Virus record (IMG/VR): IMGVR_UViG_3300027779_001746
Span: 1-20,273 of that record
Strand: one strand, 5' to 3'
Origin: a virus
Length of the DNA: 20,273 nucleotides
A program made the translations under genes and the position numbers. How positions within the stretch are numbered: position 1 is the first letter of the stretch; each line of letters starts with the position of its first letter. Shown piece after piece: positions 1 through 20,273 of this stretch. The notes beneath the pieces were generated by a model. The model did not search any database. It worked only from the letters and a program-made list of their open reading frames with translations, and had not been told where the DNA came from.

Positions 1-696
1 AGCTGTGAAGCTACCGGTTTACAGGCAGATTATATCCGCGATGGATTAAAGTATGATGTTTGGAAAGCTAACATGTATAAGTGTTTCCGTGAAGCTAAAC
101 TTGGCGGTGTTAATATTATGATGACTATCAATAGTCTGTGCCTGTTTAGCATAACTGATTTTCTCAATGATGTATATGAGATGAAAGAGTTCACCGGCAC
201 AAGTGCGCCTGTTGTTAGTCTAAATCTATTACGCTTTCCTAGCTTTCAATCACCACTCGCTTTGCCAGACCATATTAAAGATTATCTTAGAAAAAATATT
301 GAAGATTGGTGGTCTGTTGCTAAACTATTGCCTAAGTGGCATGACTTTGAGCGGGCTAGCATTGATAGATTGATTGACTATCTTGTTACTGTCGATGCAC
401 CTCACCGAAGAACCAGTGACAAGGTGGCTTTACATAGAGACTTCAAAACATTCTATAAACAGTATGATGAAAGGCGCGGTCTGTCGTTATCTGTATTTCC
501 TAAGATACTCACTGATTGGGTTGAGAGTATTCCAACAACTGAGACTATACAACTAGTCGATCTTATTGATGGTGATAGTACTCGACAATATGATAATGAT
601 CCTGACTTGAAGAAAGTAGCTAAAGATGAAGGTTGGAATCTGAACCCCGATAGTAAGAATATCGACAAGCCGCTTGCTACTTATGACGAAGAATGA
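1..696 (+). CDS. Radical SAM protein, C-terminal part (5' end outside window)
   Basis: The frame is open from base 1 and stops at 694-696, so 231 C-terminal residues are visible. An ATG at 73 is internal, because the coding sequence before it already matches the family: the segment ending ADYIRDGLKYDVW resembles GEYIRTGLKWSDW, which follows the SIDG motif in the next gene. The C-terminal stretch with YDERRG resembles MDERRG near the end of the fifth gene of the array. The CxxxCxxC iron-sulfur motif lies upstream of the window and cannot be checked. The next gene overlaps it by 14 bases, so this is the first visible member of a translationally coupled tandem array. Assignment rests on similarity to its neighbours; the substrate is unknown. 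Confidence 0.75.
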   Translation, partial: SCEATGLQADYIRDGLKYDVWKANMYKCFREAKLGGVNIMMTINSLCLFSITDFLNDVYEMKEFTGTSAPVVSLNLLRFPSFQSPLALPDHIKDYLRKNIEDWWSVAKLLPKWHDFERASIDRLIDYLVTVDAPHRRTSDKVALHRDFKTFYKQYDERRGLSLSVFPKILTDWVESIPTTETIQLVDLIDGDSTRQYDNDPDLKKVAKDEGWNLNPDSKNIDKPLATYDEE

Positions 697-1990
697 TCTG
701 TCGCCATATTTTTGCACCGCTCCCTGGACCCATACTTATGTGAGTCCTCAAGGGGAGCGCAGACTTTGTTGTGCGAGTCGGGAAGATGCTTCCTTTCAAA
801 AGCAATATATTGATGCTGGCTCTCAGGATAATGAGTTTGCGCCCGTTACATTGAAAGAACATTGGAATAGTGATTACATGAAAGATATCCGCAAGAAGAT
901 GCTTGCAGGTGAGAAGCTATCCCAATGCGAGGTGTGTAATAATCAAATACTGAACTTACACACATACAAGCAATACTTTAATGAAACATTATTCCCACAT
1001 AAAATAGCAGACATCATTGCCAAGACTGAGCCAGATGGACACTATAACGATCTTCCAGTTTCATATGACTATCGTGTTTCTAATCTATGCAATTTTAAAT
1101 GTCGTATGTGTGGTGATCAATTGTCGAGCAGTTGGGAAGCAGAGAATAAGAAATACAAAGAGCCAGACTATCAAGCAGACAAGTGGTTGCGACCTGATAT
1201 CCGAACTCGCATTGCATCATTTCAGACAGAAGTGTTAGAAGCAGAATTACAAGAATCGGTTGACAATAAGACTATAGAAGAAATATATTGGGTAGGTGGT
1301 GAGCCTTTGATGTTCGATAAACATTGGACTATCATGCAACAACTTGTAGACAACGGACACGCCAAGAATGTGACTGTCAGATACAATACGAATCTAAGCA
1401 GAGTCGAATATAAAGGAGTGAAACTATTTGACTTGCTACCACACTTTAAACATGTTAACATATGTGCAAGCATTGATGGAGTAGGTGAAATTGGTGAATA
1501 TATTAGAACGGGTCTTAAATGGAGCGATTGGCTCGAAAATTTTAAAATGGGTTTACCTCTCATTAGTCGTTTTGGTAGTGACGCCATGGTTTTTGATGTC
1601 ACTCTTACTACTCCTGGCTTTTTTGCCTTAAAGGAGTTGTTCGATGTTGTTACTGAATTGAATGTAAAATCGTACTTCAAGTTCACTTTTGCATTCGATC
1701 CATCTGTTGTTATGAGCCCAATGTGTTTGCCTAGAGACATTATGGAAGAACATGTCTATGATTTACTTGGTTACATTGAGCCCAGAATGACAGAGAAGAC
1801 CCATGTGTACAAGAAGTCTTTGGTTAACATGTTACAACGACAGACATTTGATGAAGAGTTTGCAGATGTTAAACAAGGGTTAAAACGAGGTAAAGGATAT
1901 ATGAAATATCTTGACAGTGTACGAGCAGACAAGATTGAATTCAGAGATACGTTATCAGTATCAGCAAAGGAATGGTGGGATGGGATCTAA
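683..1990 (+). CDS. Radical SAM protein with N-terminal Cys-rich twitch-like region (array copy 2)
   Basis: A 435-residue protein, started at ATG 683; a TTG at 674 is also in frame but adds only three residues. The N-terminus has FCTAPW (Cys11), a CC pair (Cys29-Cys30) and CEVC near residue 90, a pattern seen in twitch-domain radical SAM proteins where extra cysteines may hold an auxiliary cluster. The radical SAM motif CNFKCRMC (Cys136, 140, 143) binds the 4Fe-4S cluster, WVGGEP is the SAM-binding GGEP motif, and SIDGVGE follows in the barrel. The family cleaves SAM to a 5'-deoxyadenosyl radical for reactions on sugars, peptides or RNA; the substrate here is unknown. It overlaps the upstream gene by 14 bases and the downstream one by 11. 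Confidence 0.9.
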   Translation: MTKNDLSPYFCTAPWTHTYVSPQGERRLCCASREDASFQKQYIDAGSQDNEFAPVTLKEHWNSDYMKDIRKKMLAGEKLSQCEVCNNQILNLHTYKQYFNETLFPHKIADIIAKTEPDGHYNDLPVSYDYRVSNLCNFKCRMCGDQLSSSWEAENKKYKEPDYQADKWLRPDIRTRIASFQTEVLEAELQESVDNKTIEEIYWVGGEPLMFDKHWTIMQQLVDNGHAKNVTVRYNTNLSRVEYKGVKLFDLLPHFKHVNICASIDGVGEIGEYIRTGLKWSDWLENFKMGLPLISRFGSDAMVFDVTLTTPGFFALKELFDVVTELNVKSYFKFTFAFDPSVVMSPMCLPRDIMEEHVYDLLGYIEPRMTEKTHVYKKSLVNMLQRQTFDEEFADVKQGLKRGKGYMKYLDSVRADKIEFRDTLSVSAKEWWDGI

Positions 1991-3188
1991 AACATTTTGT
2001 TCTTTACCTTGGAAGCATCTTGCAACTCATCCTCACGGTGCGGTTACTCTTTGCTGTGAGTCGGATCATACTAATAGAATATCAGAGTCATTCGATAGTG
2101 GAGATTTCAAACGAGAATTTAAAACACTGCATACTACCGAATATGATTTTGATGCTATACAGAACAGTGATTCGTTTTCCACAGTAAGAAAGCAAATGCT
2201 TGCTGGCGAAGAACCAGCACCATGCACCAGATGTTTCGATTTTGAGCGTGTTGGAATAAAGTCTAAAAGACAGTTGGACAATGAGCGTCTAAATTTCACT
2301 GAAGAAGAAGCAATAAGAGTTACTAATGCTGACGGTAGTATTAATTCAGTTGATTATGAGTTTATAGAACTTAGACTTGGCAATATTTGCAATGTTGCAT
2401 GTAGAACATGTAATCCTTTTTCGACTTCACGTTGGGTCAAAGATTGGAACGAAGTAAATCCAGAAAATCCACAGACCATCGACCAGAATATGTTTAACTG
2501 GCCGACTGACCAGAATTTCTGGGACAAGTTAATACAGCACTGCGACTCATTACGAATTGTTTATATTAATGGTGGCGAGCCATTGCTTATTGACAAGCAC
2601 ATGAGTTTCTTGCAAGATTTGATTGATCGGGATGTAGCCAAGAACATTACATTGGTCTATTCTACCAATTGCACGATTGTAAATCACGAGTACGAAGAAA
2701 TATGGAAGAAGTTTAAGCATGTACAGTTGATGCTGTCAATTGATGCTCTTGGCGCACATAATCACTTTATCAGACACCCAACCAAGTGGGCTAAAGTATT
2801 AGAAACGATTAGTTGGGTAAAAGACTTATCTAAATTTGATAATATCAGCTATAACATAATGTGTACGGTTTCTATATACAATATCTGGTATCTCAAGGAG
2901 TTCCATGAGTTCTTTAAGGAAGTGCCTTACATCTCATTAAATTTCGTCACTGATCCAGCATATCAAGATGCAAGCCGCCTACCGGAAGCTATTAAACTTG
3001 CTGTATTGAAGAAGTATGTTGGATGTTCTTTCTATGATACAATAGAACAGTATCTAGGTCAGAAAGAATCAGTTAATGATCTTACGGAATTTATGCAGAA
3101 GACTCTGAAGATGGATGAACTTAGGAAGAACAACTTCAGTCAAACTTTTCCAGAACTATATAAAATGTTGACCCCCTATGTCAGATAA
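1980..3188 (+). CDS. Radical SAM protein with N-terminal Cys-rich twitch-like region (array copy 3)
   Basis: A 402-residue protein. ATG 1980 is chosen over an in-frame TTG at 1911 because an AAAGGA ribosome-binding site lies about 8 bases upstream and the family N-terminus (FCSLPWKH) begins immediately after it. Visible motifs are the N-terminal FCSLPW and CCES, CTRC near residue 82, CNVACRTC (Cys137, 141, 144), NGGEP for SAM binding, and LSIDALG. The C-terminus DELRKNNFSQTFPEL fits the D-x-x-R...FPE ending typical of the group. It overlaps the previous gene by 11 bases and the next by 11. It is clearly a paralogue of its neighbours but well diverged, which suggests distinct substrates or steps rather than recent duplication. 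Confidence 0.9.
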   Translation: MGSKTFCSLPWKHLATHPHGAVTLCCESDHTNRISESFDSGDFKREFKTLHTTEYDFDAIQNSDSFSTVRKQMLAGEEPAPCTRCFDFERVGIKSKRQLDNERLNFTEEEAIRVTNADGSINSVDYEFIELRLGNICNVACRTCNPFSTSRWVKDWNEVNPENPQTIDQNMFNWPTDQNFWDKLIQHCDSLRIVYINGGEPLLIDKHMSFLQDLIDRDVAKNITLVYSTNCTIVNHEYEEIWKKFKHVQLMLSIDALGAHNHFIRHPTKWAKVLETISWVKDLSKFDNISYNIMCTVSIYNIWYLKEFHEFFKEVPYISLNFVTDPAYQDASRLPEAIKLAVLKKYVGCSFYDTIEQYLGQKESVNDLTEFMQKTLKMDELRKNNFSQTFPELYKMLTPYVR

Positions 3189-4389
3189 CTTTTTCTGTGT
3201 TGCACCATTCGTTCATATGTACGGTCATCCCAACGGTGTTGTTAAGACTTGTTGTGCGGGCATAGATGACTTTGGTAGCCTGAAGACCAATTCACTTGAA
3301 GAGATTTGGCACAATGATAAGTTTACTCAATTGCGAAAAGACTTCATTGCGGGTGATGTTACCGATCTTGTAAAGAGCAATTGTGCAACCTGTGTTAACT
3401 TTGAAAAGAGTGGAATACATTCCTTGCGTGATGGATTAAATTCTGAGTTTACAAAACATGCTGTTATAGAAGAGAAGCCTGACTTGAATCTCCTCTACAT
3501 AGATTTCCGATTTAATAACTTTTGTAATTTCAAGTGCAGAGGTTGTTACTACGAGTACAGTAGTTCTATTGCTAATGAAGATGCTGGTAAACCTGTACCT
3601 ATAATCTTTGCGGGAAAGACTCCCGATGATCTATACAATCAGACATTGCCGCACTTAGAGTACACTAAAAAGATTTACTTTGCTGGTGGTGAGCCTCTGA
3701 TACAATGGGAACATTGGAAAATATTAGATAAGTTGTTAGAACAAAATAATACTGATATTTCGCTAGTCTACAACACAAACTTCAGTACCATGAAATATAA
3801 GAATAAAAACATAGTAGATTACTGGAAACAATTCAAGAATGTGAAACTCCTACTCAGCATTGATGGGATGGAAGAAGGCGGTGACTGGTGGAGACATGGA
3901 AACGACTGGGAGAGATTGCAGAATAATATTGAGACTGTTAAGACTGAATGTCCACACATCTCTCTAGGCGTTACTTGTACTGTTGGCTGGGCTAATCTAT
4001 ACACTGCGATGGACCTAATTGATTATTGCTCAGATACCCACTTAATAAATCCACAAGAAATGAATATTAATATATTACAATTTCCTGAGCCGTTTAGTGT
4101 TCAGAATGTTCCTGATTGGAAGAAGAGAGAACTTGAGGAAAGAGTTGAAAAAACTTTGTCTAAATACTTCTTATGTCATAGAGACTCTTTGCTATCTAGC
4201 AATCTCCGTGGACTAATAAATTTTATGTGGGAAACTAGTATTACTGATGAAACAGTTTACAAGGATCTTATAGTAGGACCGTGGAATGGACTTGTTACAC
4301 ATCGAGACATTCTACGCAAAGAAAGTTTCTTTGAGACTTTTCCAGAGCATATTAATATGAAGGAATTATTGAGTGAATCAGTTAGTTGA
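3178..4389 (+). CDS. Radical SAM protein with N-terminal Cys-rich twitch-like region (array copy 4)
   Basis: A 403-residue protein from ATG 3178, which overlaps the previous stop by 11 bases. The N-terminus has FCVAPFVHMYGHPNG and CCAG, then CATC near residue 65. The radical SAM motif is CNFKCRGC (Cys116, 120, 123), with AGGEP as the SAM-binding motif and LSIDGMEEGGDWWRHG afterwards. The C-terminus ends with ESFFETFPE, matching the family tail. The spacing before the cluster motif is about 20 residues shorter than in copies 2 and 3. No strong Shine-Dalgarno is visible, so translational coupling to the upstream gene is likely. Function is inferred at superfamily level only. Confidence 0.9.
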   Translation: MSDNFFCVAPFVHMYGHPNGVVKTCCAGIDDFGSLKTNSLEEIWHNDKFTQLRKDFIAGDVTDLVKSNCATCVNFEKSGIHSLRDGLNSEFTKHAVIEEKPDLNLLYIDFRFNNFCNFKCRGCYYEYSSSIANEDAGKPVPIIFAGKTPDDLYNQTLPHLEYTKKIYFAGGEPLIQWEHWKILDKLLEQNNTDISLVYNTNFSTMKYKNKNIVDYWKQFKNVKLLLSIDGMEEGGDWWRHGNDWERLQNNIETVKTECPHISLGVTCTVGWANLYTAMDLIDYCSDTHLINPQEMNINILQFPEPFSVQNVPDWKKRELEERVEKTLSKYFLCHRDSLLSSNLRGLINFMWETSITDETVYKDLIVGPWNGLVTHRDILRKESFFETFPEHINMKELLSESVS

Positions 4390-5707
4390 TGATGTAACCA
4401 AATCAGTTCGATCTGCATACGGCGGTTCGGTTGATGATATATTCCCCATACATAACTCCTCTGCTTGTCAATTTAAGTGGTCTTGGAGTACTATCTTTTT
4501 ATCTCACGGCACAACAACTAGTTGTCACCGATGCAAACATCTTACGTTCAATAAAGATACCATAAAAAACTTTCACAATCTTCCCGCAAAGATAGACGAT
4601 AGAGAGAAGATGTTAAATGGCGAGTGGAACGACAATGGGTGTTCTTATTGTAAGAGGGTAGAAGATGCTGGTGGCAAGAGTGAAAGGACTGCTTGGATTA
4701 ATGGTCGAGATTTAGTCCCACCTGAATTCACAGATACTGAATATCCCACTAGTGTAACTCCTCGATTGCTAGAAGTTTACTTCACTAACCTATGCAATCA
4801 GGCTTGTACTTATTGTTCTCCTCAGTTTAGTTCTGTCATAGAAGCAGACGTTAAAAAGAATGGTCCCATTCATGGTGCAGTAGACTACACTCTACGACCA
4901 ATACATCCAGACTACGACATATACTTAGAAAAATTCTGGGAATGGATGGAAGAGAATGGGCATCATCTATATGAGTTTCAGATTCTAGGTGGTGAGCCTA
5001 TGTATCAGCCAGAGTTTGTGCAATGTCTTGATTTTTTTGAGAAGAATCCAAACCCTAAGCTGACATTCAGAATTTTCAGCAACTTAAAACATACCCAGAA
5101 GAAATTTACTGCTCTAATTAAGCGAGTCAGAAAACTCCAAGACGATGGTAAGATTAAGAAGTTTCAAATTATTGCAAGTATGGACTGTTGGGGACCGCAG
5201 GCAGAATATGCCAGATATGGAATGAATTTAAAGAACTGGGAAACCAATCTACGCACAGCACTAGAACATAAGATCGAAGTTAATATTCATATGACCATAA
5301 GTCCTCTGACATTACCTACTATGGCTGAGTTTATGAGAAAGATATATCAGTTTAGAAAAGAATATAATACTGGTTTATATATGAGTTCAAACACTATTAA
5401 TAATCCTAAGATGTTCGATCCATATGTCTTCGGTAACAAGTTAACACCTTACGTACAGGATGCAATCGATGAGTTGAGTGATCCGGCAGATCAAGAACAG
5501 CGCGAATGCTTGCAGGGCATGGTAGATGCACTTACAAATAACAATAGGGTGCAACTTCAACATATTAAAACATTCAGAGTTTTCTTGGATGCAATGGATG
5601 AAAGAAGAGGGAAGGGTAAAGTCTTGAAGCGATTGGCAGATTGGCGTATACTCTATCCAGAGATCAATGTGATGGTAGAAGAAATTTTGAGGGATATAAT
5701 TGCGTAA
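4373..5707 (+). CDS. Radical SAM protein (array copy 5, most divergent N-terminus)
   Basis: A 444-residue protein started at GTG 4373; an AGGA ribosome-binding site lies 8 bases upstream and no ATG is available before the conserved part. It overlaps the previous gene by 17 bases. The N-terminal cysteines differ from the other copies: ACQFKWSW replaces FCxxPW and SCHRC replaces the CC pair, but NGCSYC is kept. The cluster motif is CNQACTYC (Cys141, 145, 148), with LGGEP and SMDCWG following. The C-terminus has MDERRGKGKVLKRL, close to the tail of the truncated first gene. It could act on a different substrate from copies 2 to 4, or form part of a multi-enzyme assembly with them. Confidence 0.9.
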   Translation: MNQLVDDVTKSVRSAYGGSVDDIFPIHNSSACQFKWSWSTIFLSHGTTTSCHRCKHLTFNKDTIKNFHNLPAKIDDREKMLNGEWNDNGCSYCKRVEDAGGKSERTAWINGRDLVPPEFTDTEYPTSVTPRLLEVYFTNLCNQACTYCSPQFSSVIEADVKKNGPIHGAVDYTLRPIHPDYDIYLEKFWEWMEENGHHLYEFQILGGEPMYQPEFVQCLDFFEKNPNPKLTFRIFSNLKHTQKKFTALIKRVRKLQDDGKIKKFQIIASMDCWGPQAEYARYGMNLKNWETNLRTALEHKIEVNIHMTISPLTLPTMAEFMRKIYQFRKEYNTGLYMSSNTINNPKMFDPYVFGNKLTPYVQDAIDELSDPADQEQRECLQGMVDALTNNNRVQLQHIKTFRVFLDAMDERRGKGKVLKRLADWRILYPEINVMVEEILRDIIA

Positions 5708-15128: not shown

Positions 15129-15896
15129 ATGGCAAGACGTAAATCTACTCTCCGTGTAGTTGACCATGAGAATTATGATGATGACGTTAGACAACCTCTA
15201 AAAAATAATCAGTGTAAGTTATCACTGAATGACCTTAAAACAATAGGAGCCATGACTGAAACACAAGGACAATTCTTTTCACAGTATAGTGCAGGTGCTA
15301 CAGCAATGTTACTGCACGGAGCAGCCGGTACAGGCAAAACATTCATAGCCCTATATCGTGCATTAGAAGAAGTTCTAGAACCTCAAAGTAAGTTTGAAAA
15401 AGTAGTAATCGTTCGATCGGCAGTTGCTAGCCGTGACATCGGTCATCTCCCCGGTGACCAAGAAGAAAAAACCGCAGTCTATATGCAACCATATGTAGAG
15501 ATATGCGATAAGTTATTCCCCAAGAAGAAATCCGCTTTCAAAAGACTAATCGAGCAGAATGACGTAGAATGGATGATAACCTCATACGTTCGCGGAATCA
15601 CGTTGGATAAAGCTATTGTCATAGTCGATGAATGCCAGAATATGAATGACATGGAAATGAATTCTATACTGACAAGACTAGGAGAAGGTAGCAAATTATT
15701 GATGTGCGGAGACTTCAGACAGTCCGACTTATATCGAGCAAACGATAAGTCCGGATTGCAGAAGTTCATGGTCATAGCAGAAGACATGAAATCCTTCAAA
15801 ATTCACGAGTTCGGACCAGAGGACATAGTTAGAAGTAAGTTCGTCAGGGAGTATATTCTTGCCAGAATGCGCTATGAAGACGAATATGGTGCATAA
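15129..15896 (+). CDS. phoH: PhoH-like ATPase
   Basis: A 255-residue protein from ATG 15129 with AAAGGGA upstream as a ribosome-binding site. The Walker A motif GAAGTGKT spans residues 64-71, Walker B is VIVDECQNM, and LLMCGDFRQSD matches the conserved motif after it. RSAVASRDIGHLPGDQEEKT matches the RPxxxxGxxxGFLPGxxxEK segment of PhoH. PhoH proteins are P-loop NTPases related to superfamily 1 helicases; they are common in marine phages, where they are often used as a marker gene, and their exact role in infection is unresolved (RNA metabolism and phosphate stress have both been proposed). Length is close to that of other phage PhoH proteins. Confidence 0.95.
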   Translation: MARRKSTLRVVDHENYDDDVRQPLKNNQCKLSLNDLKTIGAMTETQGQFFSQYSAGATAMLLHGAAGTGKTFIALYRALEEVLEPQSKFEKVVIVRSAVASRDIGHLPGDQEEKTAVYMQPYVEICDKLFPKKKSAFKRLIEQNDVEWMITSYVRGITLDKAIVIVDECQNMNDMEMNSILTRLGEGSKLLMCGDFRQSDLYRANDKSGLQKFMVIAEDMKSFKIHEFGPEDIVRSKFVREYILARMRYEDEYGA

Positions 15897-16005: not shown

Positions 16006-16668
16006 ATGAAAAAATTTACACACATTGAACTACCAAATCTACCCGCTTTAACCAGAAAGAATATTGACGGTAAGCGCATGTATCTAACGGAGAGTGGTGA
16101 GAGATATCCATCTGTCACCTCTGTCCTATCTGTTCGCGGTAAAGCGGGCATTCAAAAGTGGCGACAACGAGTCGGTGCTGTGGAAGCTGATAAGATATCC
16201 AAGAAAGCGTCCACGCGCGGTACCAGAATTCACGGATTATGTGAAGACTATCTTAACAACAAAGAACTACCAGAGCTGTCCATGCTGGACAGAGACACCT
16301 GGAACACATTCTGCCCCATTGTCGAGCGTATCGACAATATTCATGCAGTTGAACCATATCTCTTTAGCAATCATCTAGGAATGGCAGGTCAGTGTGATGC
16401 CATTGCTGAGTTTGATGGTAAGCTATCAGTCATAGATTTCAAGACCTCTCGTAGGGTGAAATATCACTCTCAGATATCCAACTACTTTGCACAGTGTGCC
16501 GCATACGCTATCATGTATGAAGAAATGACTGGCATTGCTATCAATCGAACTGTGGTGCTTATTGCAGTTGATGGCGACTCGCCTCAGATATTCATTGAGA
16601 AGCGCGACAACTACGTCCCACATCTATTAGAAACTAAGCGCATGTTTGATAATGGCGAAAGTGATTAG
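16006..16668 (+). CDS. PD-(D/E)XK family exonuclease (RecB/Cas4-like nuclease)
   Basis: A 220-residue protein from ATG 16006. The core nuclease motif is visible: Asp131 in GQCDAIAEF, then Asp144-Phe-Lys146 in SVIDFKTSRR, the D...DxK signature that binds the catalytic metal. GTRIHGLCEDYL near residue 68 matches the conserved His helix of RecB- and Cas4-type nucleases (GxxxH), and YFAQCAAYAIMYEE matches the QxxxY motif after the core. RYPSVTSVLS at the N-terminus is typical of phage exonucleases of this group. The probable role is DNA end processing in recombination or host DNA breakdown. It has its own strong promoter. Confidence 0.88.
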   Translation: MKKFTHIELPNLPALTRKNIDGKRMYLTESGERYPSVTSVLSVRGKAGIQKWRQRVGAVEADKISKKASTRGTRIHGLCEDYLNNKELPELSMLDRDTWNTFCPIVERIDNIHAVEPYLFSNHLGMAGQCDAIAEFDGKLSVIDFKTSRRVKYHSQISNYFAQCAAYAIMYEEMTGIAINRTVVLIAVDGDSPQIFIEKRDNYVPHLLETKRMFDNGESD

Positions 16669-16672
16669 CCAC

Positions 16673-16701
16673 TTGACAACAAGCATTATTTCTGCTATTA
16701 T
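16673..16701 (+). promoter_or_regulatory. Sigma70-type promoter of the tmRNA gene
   Basis: TTGACA (16673-16678), a 17-base spacer and TATTAT (16696-16701) lie just before the tmRNA acceptor segment. Only one base of the -10 box differs from consensus. Expected start is near 16708, just upstream of the first paired element of the RNA. Confidence 0.82.
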
Positions 16702-16706
16702 AAATA
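16699..16706 (+). promoter_or_regulatory. T4-type late promoter motif overlapping the tmRNA promoter
   Basis: The octamer TATAAATA is identical to the T4 late promoter consensus read by gp55 with gp33 and the sliding clamp. It overlaps the -10 box of the sigma70 promoter, so the RNA could be made both early by host polymerase and late by the phage-modified enzyme. The motif is short and AT-rich, so chance occurrence is possible, but the phage does encode gp33. Confidence 0.5.
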
Positions 16707-16771
16707 ATAAATTCGATGATGTTAACAAGATAAGAAGTATGGACGCGGGTTCGACTCCCGCCAGCTCCACC

Positions 16772-16808
16772 ATAAGCGTATTGTGAAAAGTAGCAGTACG
16801 CTTATGAT
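16772..16808 (+). other. Excised intervening segment of the tmRNA precursor
   Basis: Between the CCA end of the acceptor piece and the GGGG start of the coding piece lies a short segment with a perfect 9-bp inverted repeat, ATAAGCGTA (16772-16780) and TACGCTTAT (16797-16805), separated by 16 bases. In the precursor it would close into a hairpin extending the acceptor stem, and be removed by tRNA-processing enzymes such as RNase P at 16809. Confidence 0.8.
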
Positions 16809-16903
16809 GGGGCTGAACTGGTGATCGACATGCGACTGAAGGGTTAACGGAGAATCAGGCAATGCTGAAGCCTGTCATGTAGTAAAGAAGCAAAACCATA
16901 AAT

Positions 16904-16936
16904 GCAAACGATGAAGTTTTTGCACTAGCCGCATAG
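16904..16936 (+). other. tmRNA tag reading frame, ANDEVFALAA
   Basis: From the probable resume codon GCA (16904-16906) the frame reads ANDEVFALAA and stops at TAG (16934-16936). With the alanine carried by the tmRNA itself, the tag added to a stalled protein would be AANDEVFALAA. The AND start and ALAA end match tags that deliver proteins to ClpXP and related proteases. Confidence 0.9.
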
Positions 16937-17002
16937 GTTAGTTGAGGCATGGGAACCACCTTATAATCAAACGGTCCCACCACAATGTAGGAAGGATACT
17001 GT

Positions 17003-17623
17003 ATGTTATTACTACGAGAGAAGTTAGTATATACGGCAATGTTTTTTATACTTGCCAGTTATGCAACATTAAACCTAGTTCAGGCATTCGATACGTCTGA
17101 TATAATAGAAACAGAAGCAGTGGAAGAAACTGATCCACTTAAACAAATCTTTGATACCATTGATGAAATAGATTATAATAGTATTGTCGAAAGTACTATG
17201 CCAGATGCACATTGCCTAGCTACTAATATTTACTTTGAAGCTAGAGGTGAATCAGAAGCCGGTCAGATAGCAGTTGCTTTTGTCACATTGAATAGAGTAA
17301 GAAGTAGCAACTTTCCAAATGATATTTGTGATGTTGTATATCAAGCGCAACATTCAGAATGGTGGAAAGAACATAAGAACAAGTTAGTACCCATTAGACA
17401 CCGTTGTCAGTTTAGTTGGTATTGTGATGGTAAATCTGACAAAGTACATAATGAAGATGAGTATCTCCGTCTTCTGGAATTAGCATTTGAAGTGTTGATG
17501 GATAACCATACAGATAATACTGGTGGTGCTGTTTACTACCATGCGGATTACGTTGAGCCATATTGGGCAATAGCTTATAATAAGACAACGAGTATTGATG
17601 ATCATGTTTTTTACAGAGAGTAG
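17003..17623 (+). CDS. Cell wall hydrolase, SleB/CwlJ family
   Basis: A 206-residue protein from ATG 17003 with a strong AGGAAGGA ribosome-binding site that begins right at the end of the tmRNA. Residues 1-29 form a signal peptide or membrane anchor (basic start LLLREK, hydrophobic core, possible cleavage after LVQA). An acidic linker follows (residues 30-60). The SleB-type domain occupies about 70-200: CLATNIYFEARGES with the candidate catalytic Glu79, VAFVTLNRV, CDVVYQ and CQFSWYCDG. The family cleaves peptidoglycan glycan strands, like a lytic transglycosylase. The export signal suggests it acts in the periplasm, either during lysis or wall remodelling. Confidence 0.88.
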   Translation: MLLLREKLVYTAMFFILASYATLNLVQAFDTSDIIETEAVEETDPLKQIFDTIDEIDYNSIVESTMPDAHCLATNIYFEARGESEAGQIAVAFVTLNRVRSSNFPNDICDVVYQAQHSEWWKEHKNKLVPIRHRCQFSWYCDGKSDKVHNEDEYLRLLELAFEVLMDNHTDNTGGAVYYHADYVEPYWAIAYNKTTSIDDHVFYRE

Positions 17624-18496: not shown

Positions 18497-18784
18497 ATGC
18501 ACAAAGTAGTTGATAATGTAATAACCGACAAGCCTACAATGTCGGACGTATCTCTTATAACAAAAGAGTTCAGAACATCAAATGATTTTTCACAACACAT
18601 TGAGAAGATGGCTAATGTAACCAATAGCTATATCGATGCTGTCGTTGATTACTGTGAGAGGCGAGACATTGAAATTGAAAGTGTTAAGAAACTACTGTCA
18701 GTATCATTGAAAGATAAAATAAAGAATGAAGCTGAAGGGCTCAATATGCTGAAAGGCACCAAAGGCGGCAAGCTACCCATATGA
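18497..18784 (+). CDS. 33: Late transcription co-activator, gp33-like
   Basis: A 95-residue protein from ATG 18497, directly after the epimerase stop, with AAGGA upstream. In T4, gp33 bridges host RNA polymerase and the sliding clamp to activate late promoters together with gp55. The call rests on gene order (33-59-32 as in T4), size (T4 gp33 has 112 residues) and a helical, charged sequence containing FSQHIEKMANVTNSYIDAVVDYCE, typical of marine T4-like gp33. The hydrophobic C-terminal clamp-binding tail of T4 gp33 is not obvious here; it ends in GGKLPI. It overlaps gene 59 as ATGA. Confidence 0.78.
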   Translation: MHKVVDNVITDKPTMSDVSLITKEFRTSNDFSQHIEKMANVTNSYIDAVVDYCERRDIEIESVKKLLSVSLKDKIKNEAEGLNMLKGTKGGKLPI

Positions 18785-19383
18785 TCGATCCGTTTGAACT
18801 TTACAAATTGTATCTTGCTCTGAAACTACATTTCACCAAGAAAGATTATGACATCACCAAAACAAAAGGTGCTGTTAAAGTGAAGAGAGAAACCTTTCTG
18901 AAAAGAAGAGACTTAATATCGATTCGTAAATTGGCTAGAGATTATAAGCGGGCTGAGATGATAGACTTTCTTGTAGCTAACTTTGTGTCTGGTGAGAAAT
19001 GGGGTGGACTGTTTGATGCTGAAGCTGGCAAGCGATATAAAGCCTGGCTTCAAAGGAAGACTAAGAGAGAGTACATCTTTGAACAAGACGTAGATAAGAT
19101 ACTACTGGAGATGGAGAAGCATGAGATATCTAATCCTTTTTATGCAAAAAACTCTCAACACCCCTTGACATTCAGACTTTATTTTGCTAATATAGTTACT
19201 ATAGAATCATTAGTGATACTTGATAAAAGTTTCAACTATGCAGATTCTAACTCGGAAGATATTTTTATGGATGATCTATGTTTGATCATTAAGAAGTATC
19301 GACCGTTTATAAGAATAACAGACAAGATGAAGTCCGTTATAACACCTCTTGAAACCATTATAAATAAGGATGTAGAGTTCTAA
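18781..19383 (+). CDS. 59: Replicative helicase loader, gp59-like
   Basis: A 200-residue protein from ATG 18781. In T4, gp59 loads the gp41 helicase onto gp32-coated forked DNA and links recombination to replication. The pattern DPFELYKLYLALKLHF near the start, then KKDYDITK, a KRRD motif near residue 41, LARDYKR and FLVANFVSGEKW, matches T4 gp59 (VYKLYLMIKQH, KYDVIKY, KRRD, LSEKYK, ISNLVAN) in order and spacing. Length is close to T4's 217. Neighbouring genes 33 and 32 support the call. The stop overlaps the next start by one base (TAATG). Confidence 0.9.
   Translation: MIDPFELYKLYLALKLHFTKKDYDITKTKGAVKVKRETFLKRRDLISIRKLARDYKRAEMIDFLVANFVSGEKWGGLFDAEAGKRYKAWLQRKTKREYIFEQDVDKILLEMEKHEISNPFYAKNSQHPLTFRLYFANIVTIESLVILDKSFNYADSNSEDIFMDDLCLIIKKYRPFIRITDKMKSVITPLETIINKDVEF
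19359..19366 (+). promoter_or_regulatory. T4-type late promoter motif ahead of the gene 32 region
   Basis: An exact TATAAATA lies inside the end of gene 59, 16 bases before the start of the next small gene. Transcription would begin near 19373 and include the small gene and gene 32. T4 also has promoters within gene 59 for gene 32. Confidence 0.5.
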
Positions 19384-19600: not shown

Positions 19601-20273
19601 ATGTCTTTTAGCAACCTTTCTGACCTACGATCTGCACGTGGTAACTTTGACTCTCTAATGAAAGAAGTAGAGAAGATGAACACAAATACTAACCAGTCTA
19701 ATAAAGACGATGGTAATATTTGGAAGCCCACTGTCGATACTGCGGGTAATGGCTACGCTGTTATTCGATTCCTTCCAGCCCCTCAAGGAGAAGATTTGCC
19801 TTGGGTACGCATGTGGAATCACGGCTTTCAAGGACCCACTGGAAAGTGGTACATTGAAAACTCACTAACCACTCTTCAACAGCAAGATCCTGTGTCTGAA
19901 CTGAACAGCGAATTGTGGAACAGTGGTTCTGATGCAAGCAAAGAGATTGCGCGGAAGCAAAAACGTAGGCTTGCTTATTACGCCAACATCATGATTGTCC
20001 AAGATCCATCTGCACCTGAAAATGAAGGTAAAGTTTTCATGTACAAGTTTGGTAAGAAAATCTTTGATAAGATTATGGAAGCAATGAAGCCAGAGTTTCA
20101 GGATGAGACTCCTCTAAATCCTTTTGATTTCTGGGACGGTGTAAACTTTAAACTCAAGATTCGTCAAGTTGAAGGTTATCGCAACTACGACAAGTCAGAG
20201 TTTGAACAAACGCCAGTAGCAGTCGCAGAAGGTGATGAAGCGATTGAAGCAATTTGGAAACAGCAACACTCTC
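19601..20273 (+). CDS. 32: Single-stranded DNA-binding protein gp32 (3' end outside window)
   Basis: ATG 19601 follows a GGAG ribosome-binding site; 224 residues are visible before the window ends. In T4, gp32 coats single-stranded DNA at forks and recombination intermediates. Matches to T4 gp32 include NGYAVIRFLPAP, NHGFQGPTGKWYIE, YYANIMIVQDPSAPENEGKVF, YKFGKKIFDKI and LKIRQVEGYRNYDKSEF, covering the OB-fold core in order. The region that carries the zinc-binding Cys residues in T4 reads ENSLTTLQQQDPVSELN here, and no Cys occurs in the visible part, so the zinc site seems absent. The acidic C-terminal tail lies beyond the window. Confidence 0.96.
   Translation, partial: MSFSNLSDLRSARGNFDSLMKEVEKMNTNTNQSNKDDGNIWKPTVDTAGNGYAVIRFLPAPQGEDLPWVRMWNHGFQGPTGKWYIENSLTTLQQQDPVSELNSELWNSGSDASKEIARKQKRRLAYYANIMIVQDPSAPENEGKVFMYKFGKKIFDKIMEAMKPEFQDETPLNPFDFWDGVNFKLKIRQVEGYRNYDKSEFEQTPVAVAEGDEAIEAIWKQQHS

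Follow-up and report, generated by a model that had tools for sequence, protein, structure and literature searches.

The window, a 20,273-nt virus record from an aquatic T4-like phage, carries on its plus strand a complete, circularly permuted gene for a two-piece tmRNA (16673-16990), as indicated jointly by Rfam covariance models, ARAGORN, the predicted fold and covariation among relatives. At the level of sequence, this evidence shows an intact, structurally well-conserved permuted gene with a promoter-like site of its own and an alanine-type acceptor identity. The surprising part of the finding lies in related phages, where protein genes appear to be nested in the segment between the two tmRNA pieces; in the window itself, this segment is a bare 36-nt hairpin.

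Identification of a permuted tmRNA gene

Two Rfam families match the region: tmRNA_permuted (RF04321) at 16710-16936, with 116 bits against a cut-off of 47 (E 1.9e-22), and beta_tmRNA (RF01850) at 16659-17008, with 93.9 bits (E 1.2e-27), only modestly above its cut-off of 84. ARAGORN likewise calls a permuted tmRNA (tmRNA*) at 16680-17027 with the tag ANDEVFALAA. The original prediction had pointed to the alphaproteobacterial covariance model as the check. The significant matches to RF04321 and RF01850 bear out the gene, but not that lineage: the betaproteobacterial model, rather than the alpha model, heads the three lineage models, a ranking taken from Rfam output that kept only the top clan member and dropped lower-scoring ones. 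The window gene matches beta_tmRNA above the curated threshold and ahead of the other lineage models.

The predicted arrangement of parts was recovered in full. The acceptor half, with its T arm, acceptor 3′ strand and encoded CCA, lies upstream of the coding half (Table 1), and the two pair through a 7-bp acceptor stem containing G3-U70, in which 16809-16815 and 16762-16768 match at all 7 of 7 positions. Both proposed P2 elements (CATGC/GTATG and GTTAAC/GTTAAC) are present in the minimum-energy fold of 16716-16960, together with the acceptor stem, the T stem, the intervening hairpin and a stem located where pseudoknot 1 would lie; the energy of this fold has a z of -3.5 relative to 200 dinucleotide shuffles. 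The tag frame opens with an alanine resume codon and closes with a hydrophobic LAA-type end and a stop, and the tag pattern has a single match in the window but none in 100 shuffles. By sequence comparison, the loop of the 3′ hairpin resembles the corresponding loop in other beta-type tmRNAs.

A sigma-70-type promoter-like site ends 14 bases before the acceptor piece, and a T4-late-like TATAAATA, read from the sequence, overlaps its -10 region. Promoter-like matches of at least 10 of 12 positions lie upstream of related tmRNAs in 42 of 154 unique regions, compared with 2.6% of shuffles.

Table 1. Features of the tmRNA gene and its neighbors in the window
Feature	Position	Strand	Basis or remark
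PhoH-like, conserved upstream neighbor	15129..15896	+	
PD-(D/E)XK exonuclease, conserved upstream neighbor	16006..16668	+	
Sigma-70-type promoter-like site TTGACA-17-TATTAT	16673..16701	+	11/12 match
Acceptor piece: P2 3′ strands, T arm, acceptor 3′ strand, encoded CCA	about 16716..16772	+	Rfam, ARAGORN, fold; 5′ end inferred
T arm GCGGG-TTCGACT-CCCGC	16745..16761	+	T stem 16745-16749/16757-16761; fold, alignment of relatives
Acceptor 3′ strand CAGCTCC + ACCA, includes U70 of G3-U70	16762..16772	+	Encoded CCA ends at 16772
Intervening segment: hairpin TAAGCGTA.../...TACGCTTA, then TGAT	16773..16808	+	36 nt; without protein gene
Coding piece	16809..16986	+	Rfam, ARAGORN; 3′ end approximate, inferred
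Acceptor 5′ strand GGGGCTG and D-loop-like region to TCGAC	16809..16829	+	Fold, alignment of relatives
P2 5′ strands	16829..16848	+	CATGC 16829-16833 pairs with GTATG 16737-16741; GTTAAC 16843-16848 pairs with GTTAAC 16721-16726
Stem CAGGC/GCCTG at pseudoknot 1 position	16856..16874	+	Fold
Tag reading frame ANDEVFALAA, GCA...TAG	16904..16936	+	Stop TAG; ARAGORN, tag pattern
3′ hairpin GGGAACC...GGTCCC	16951..16978	+	beta_tmRNA alignment; sequence comparison
Cell wall hydrolase, conserved downstream neighbor	17003..17623	+	
gp33 late-transcription coactivator	18497..18784	+	
gp59 helicase loader	18781..19383	+	
gp32 single-strand DNA-binding protein	19601..20272	+	Cut by window end

Covariation across relatives

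An alignment of 21 phage sequences is sufficient on its own to recover the acceptor, T and P2 stems (RNAalifold). At 10 of 19 pairs, a change on one side is compensated by a change on the other; at the fifth pair of the acceptor stem, both sides change in 11 of the 21 sequences. P2 pairs at 5 of 5 positions in 26 of 41 distinct combinations, as opposed to 8.9% for mismatched partners. The intervening segment has a stem formed by its first nine bases and the bases preceding its last few, with at least 8 of 9 pairs in 125 of 135 unique segments versus 18.5% for arms taken from different loci. In most loci (97 unique segments), the segment ends in TGAT. Compensatory changes thus support the predicted acceptor, T, P2 and intervening stems. 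Because the search for relatives used a TCCACCA anchor, U70 is forced in them; the window was found independently of the anchor.

Gene order and relatives

The T4-type surroundings named in the original prediction are confirmed, with gp32, gp59, gp33, PhoH and PD-(D/E)XK exonuclease genes as neighbors of the tmRNA; the gp32, gp59 and gp33 genes mark the window as coming from a T4-like phage. An epimerase gene also lies downstream, between the cell wall hydrolase and gp33. Between the gp32 of the window and its counterpart in Pelagibacter phage HTVC008M, identity is 66.5%; the values are about 61-65% for the cyanophages compared and 62% for Melnitz. One near-identical contig (L065) has the same genes at 97-100% protein identity. 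Elsewhere in the window (674-5707), four radical-SAM genes stand in a row, and three of them have SPASM domains; downstream of these come a UDP-glucose-dehydrogenase-like gene and one for a carbamoyltransferase.

An intact permuted tmRNA, with 7/7 acceptor-stem and 5/5 T-stem pairs, is present in 211 contigs, including the window. These derive from a permuted-tmRNA pattern (64 viral contigs matched), a tag-only pattern that does not require permutation (at least 120 contigs) and two further pattern scans; among the tag-only matches listed, about 100 of the loci brought in are permuted according to ARAGORN. Tags in the relatives end mostly in LAA, VAA or IAA. The order PhoH-exonuclease-tmRNA-cell wall hydrolase-gp33-gp59-gp32, or parts of it where a contig is cut, recurs in dozens of contigs at roughly 30-65% protein identity, and Melnitz has the order PhoH-exonuclease-tmRNA-gp33-gp59-gp32, without the hydrolase in that place. 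Because this order is common to many contigs and to Melnitz, the position of the tmRNA gene must be old. Melnitz is matched best by the alpha lineage model; the remaining syntenic phages that were scanned, the window among them, are matched best by the beta model. With blastn, no isolate phage with a similar tmRNA was found for the window, L168 or L144, the window giving short T-arm matches only, and the Melnitz tmRNA as query returned Melnitz isolates only.

Two variant forms were also seen. At L030:1385-1552, a permuted tmRNA match of 63.4 bits, missed by ARAGORN, appears on inspection to have a tag frame of no more than AMAA ahead of the stop. In L049 and L060, a short permuted tmRNA with the tag ANDNFALAA adjoins tRNA-Ile in a phage tRNA cluster.

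Predicted protein genes nested in the intervening segment of relatives

Long intervening segments are frequent: of 144 unique ones, 49 fall in the range 76-120 nt and 32 are longer than 120 nt. In many long segments, a single ORF begins 9-23 nt past the CCA and stops within the final 20 nt, often at the TGA that belongs to the terminal TGAT. The nested ORFs usually have a Shine-Dalgarno-like motif in one stem arm and their stop in or beside the other: the conserved stem, which continues the acceptor stem, holds a candidate ribosome-binding site (TAAGGA) in its 5′ arm, while its 3′ arm and the bases beyond often form the final codons and the stop (TCTTTA-TGA-T). Such ORFs are found in L168, L228, L131, L206, L231, L144, L137, L239, L242, L177 and others, and the predicted proteins, of about 22-144 aa, are of unrelated types.

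Spanning ORFs are far more frequent than chance would give. When the 81 segments longer than 75 nt were clustered into 55 families, 24 had a spanning ORF compared with 2.9 expected and a maximum of 9 in 400 shuffled sets that kept both segment ends; each family was represented by the member with the longest spanning ORF, itself the sequence shuffled, which somewhat favors the observed count. For segments above 120 nt, the figures are 15 of 21 families versus 0.14 expected, and for families from the tag-only scan, in which the segment was not selected on, 15 of 40 versus 2.6. Half of the ten nested ORFs tried (5/10) passed Pfam cut-offs, as DUF2061 (L168, 3.7e-21), Oxidored-like (L121 group, 3.3e-12), GNAT (L206, 2.1e-6), CxxCxxCC (L131, 1e-5) and HNH (L231, 8.1e-5). 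Differences between homologous nested ORFs fall mostly at the third codon position in the four larger groups compared, members of the smallest groups being too alike to judge; the counts at first/second/third positions are 80/89/218 for the Oxidored-like group, 9/13/43 for the 123-aa group, 45/13/71 for the 52-aa group and 24/19/47 for the 56-aa group.

In the tag-only set, a Shine-Dalgarno-like motif occurs within the first 12 nt in 15 of 19 segments with a spanning ORF versus 4 of 59 without (Fisher p 2.7e-9, the related loci not being independent). The four exceptions include two Oxidored-like segments. The motif lies inside the 5′ arm of the conserved stem, and folding of the tmRNA would therefore hide it, which leads to an either-or model. 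We think it likely that the intervening segment of the relatives is a nest for protein genes, of which the window holds the empty version, and that a given transcript could then either be translated into the nested protein or mature into the tmRNA, but not both. The sequence shows these ORFs as reading frames; their expression and the either-or link are what we propose. If true, a permuted RNA gene would be put to a new use, with one transcript serving as both mRNA and tmRNA precursor. Our search of accessible papers, largely without subscription journals, found no report of protein genes within tmRNA intervening segments, and to that extent the nested genes appear unreported. The tmRNA database paper, which covers 79 phage sequences, describes two permuted genes whose intervening sequences hold, respectively, a tRNA-Ala and a repetitive element (PMC11915505).

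Several segments depart from the single-ORF pattern. The Oxidored-like ORF (CCGRGCEGCVW), present in L113, L121, L148, L152, L170, L208 and L209, has no start codon within the segment, and the group was therefore left out of the spanning-ORF count. In 6 of 7 cases, L208 being the exception, the frame stays open back to an ATG within the acceptor piece, and the protein may therefore share sequence with functional parts of the tmRNA. The segments of L246 and L245 each contain two tandem ORFs, and each of those in L246 has a homologue standing alone elsewhere (L251, L255). T-arm-like sequences (GGTTCGAGTCC and similar), perhaps tRNA remnants, occur in the segments of L202, L149 and L213.

Proposed function and alternatives

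Judged from its sequence, the window gene contains all the RNA-side requirements for trans-translation, and it is very probably a functional phage-encoded two-piece tmRNA. Host-assisted trans-translation during infection would be its likeliest function. SmpB was matched in 0 of 18 tmRNA-phage records compared with 10 of 14 control genomes; therefore, the SmpB of the host is presumably used, and AlaRS, the processing enzymes and the proteases presumably also come from the host. The gene would be transcribed as a precursor in which the acceptor stem forms beneath the intervening hairpin. Host tRNA-processing enzymes would excise the intervening segment, host AlaRS would charge the acceptor piece and host SmpB would bind the phage tmRNA. 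During T4-like infection, mRNA is turned over extensively. Ribosomes that stall on mRNA cleaved in the infected cell would be rescued, the products would be tagged with ANDEVFALAA for host proteases, and a phage-controlled supply of tmRNA would in this way free ribosomes. That a ribosome-rescue RNA holds a conserved spot in the replication region across a broad group of aquatic T4-like phages suggests that infection carries a real cost in stalled ribosomes.

The same RNA could instead act chiefly by marking host or competing proteins for degradation, or by diverting host trans-translation, and not by freeing ribosomes. The window tag does keep a degron-like ALAA end, and selective tagging of host proteins was proposed by the authors of the Melnitz study (PMC9004378). 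Tagging, however, targets stalled ribosomes rather than chosen proteins, and our analysis gave no sign of selectivity, so that we regard this role as unlikely. A decoy that interferes with host tmRNA is more doubtful still. Its precedent is mycobacteriophage DS6A, whose tag-less form is reported to inhibit endogenous tmRNA in E. coli (PMC11915505); mycobacteriophage tmRNAs are phage-borne like that of the window, but the DS6A form lacks a tag frame, whereas the window gene is permuted and complete. The tag frame, resume codon, stop and coding-piece structure are all present in the window, and likewise in related phages.

We give least credence to the idea that the gene was captured from a host, or is host contamination, and has no role in the phage. 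Genes for tmRNA are integration sites, fragments of which are carried by temperate phages (PMC9004378), and the short T-arm matches to phages noted above would fit such an origin. The position of the gene between T4-type core genes, in the same order in many lineages, the near-identical contig and the compensatory changes in the tmRNA stems argue the other way, and conserved position and covariation already contradict this explanation. Trans-translation with host factors remains our preferred reading.

Relation to known two-piece tmRNAs and donor search

The original prediction considered a permuted copy beside T4-type genes striking. The context is real, but it is less striking in view of Melnitz, a T4-like phage described on OM43 strain H5P1, for which a two-piece tmRNA at the same locus is already published, in a study reporting 53 two-piece tmRNA structures among phage genomes (PMC9004378). 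Phage two-piece tmRNA is a known but little-studied kind of gene, and that of the window is not the first. The ssrA of Melnitz (Methylophilales phage, MZ577097.1) resembles the window gene in being permuted, in a T4-like phage, and between PhoH/exonuclease and gp33/gp59/gp32. It differs in its tag (ANDNYVPVDYALAA), in an intervening segment of 142 nt rather than 36 nt, and in matching alpha_tmRNA best (106.7 bits) with an adjacent glutamine riboswitch match, whereas the window matches beta_tmRNA best and has no such match.

Betaproteobacterial two-piece tmRNA (RF01850) has the same order of parts as the window gene and is its best lineage model at 93.9 bits. RF04321 also matches the window at full length; as a general model of the tRNA-like domain, it reveals no difference of weight. 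The bacterial permuted tmRNAs found here have only 4 or 5 nt after the CCA, in contrast to the 36-nt hairpin of the window. In bacteria, beta_tmRNA members above the cut-off were present in 1 of 369 genomes of a class sample and 2 of 85 of an order sample.

A search of genome contigs for the exact tag matched just two, L068 and L069, and identified no donor. The tmRNA of L068, from a Thiotrichaceae MAG, is of the standard one-piece form. That of L069, from a Flavobacteriales MAG, is permuted, but its best lineage model is alpha, and the ORFs on the contig look phage-like. The genome to which L069 belongs (G002, labelled Flavobacteriales) has three permuted tmRNA matches above the cut-off on separate contigs; given the phage-like ORFs on L069, the contig examined, phage contigs may have been binned with this MAG.
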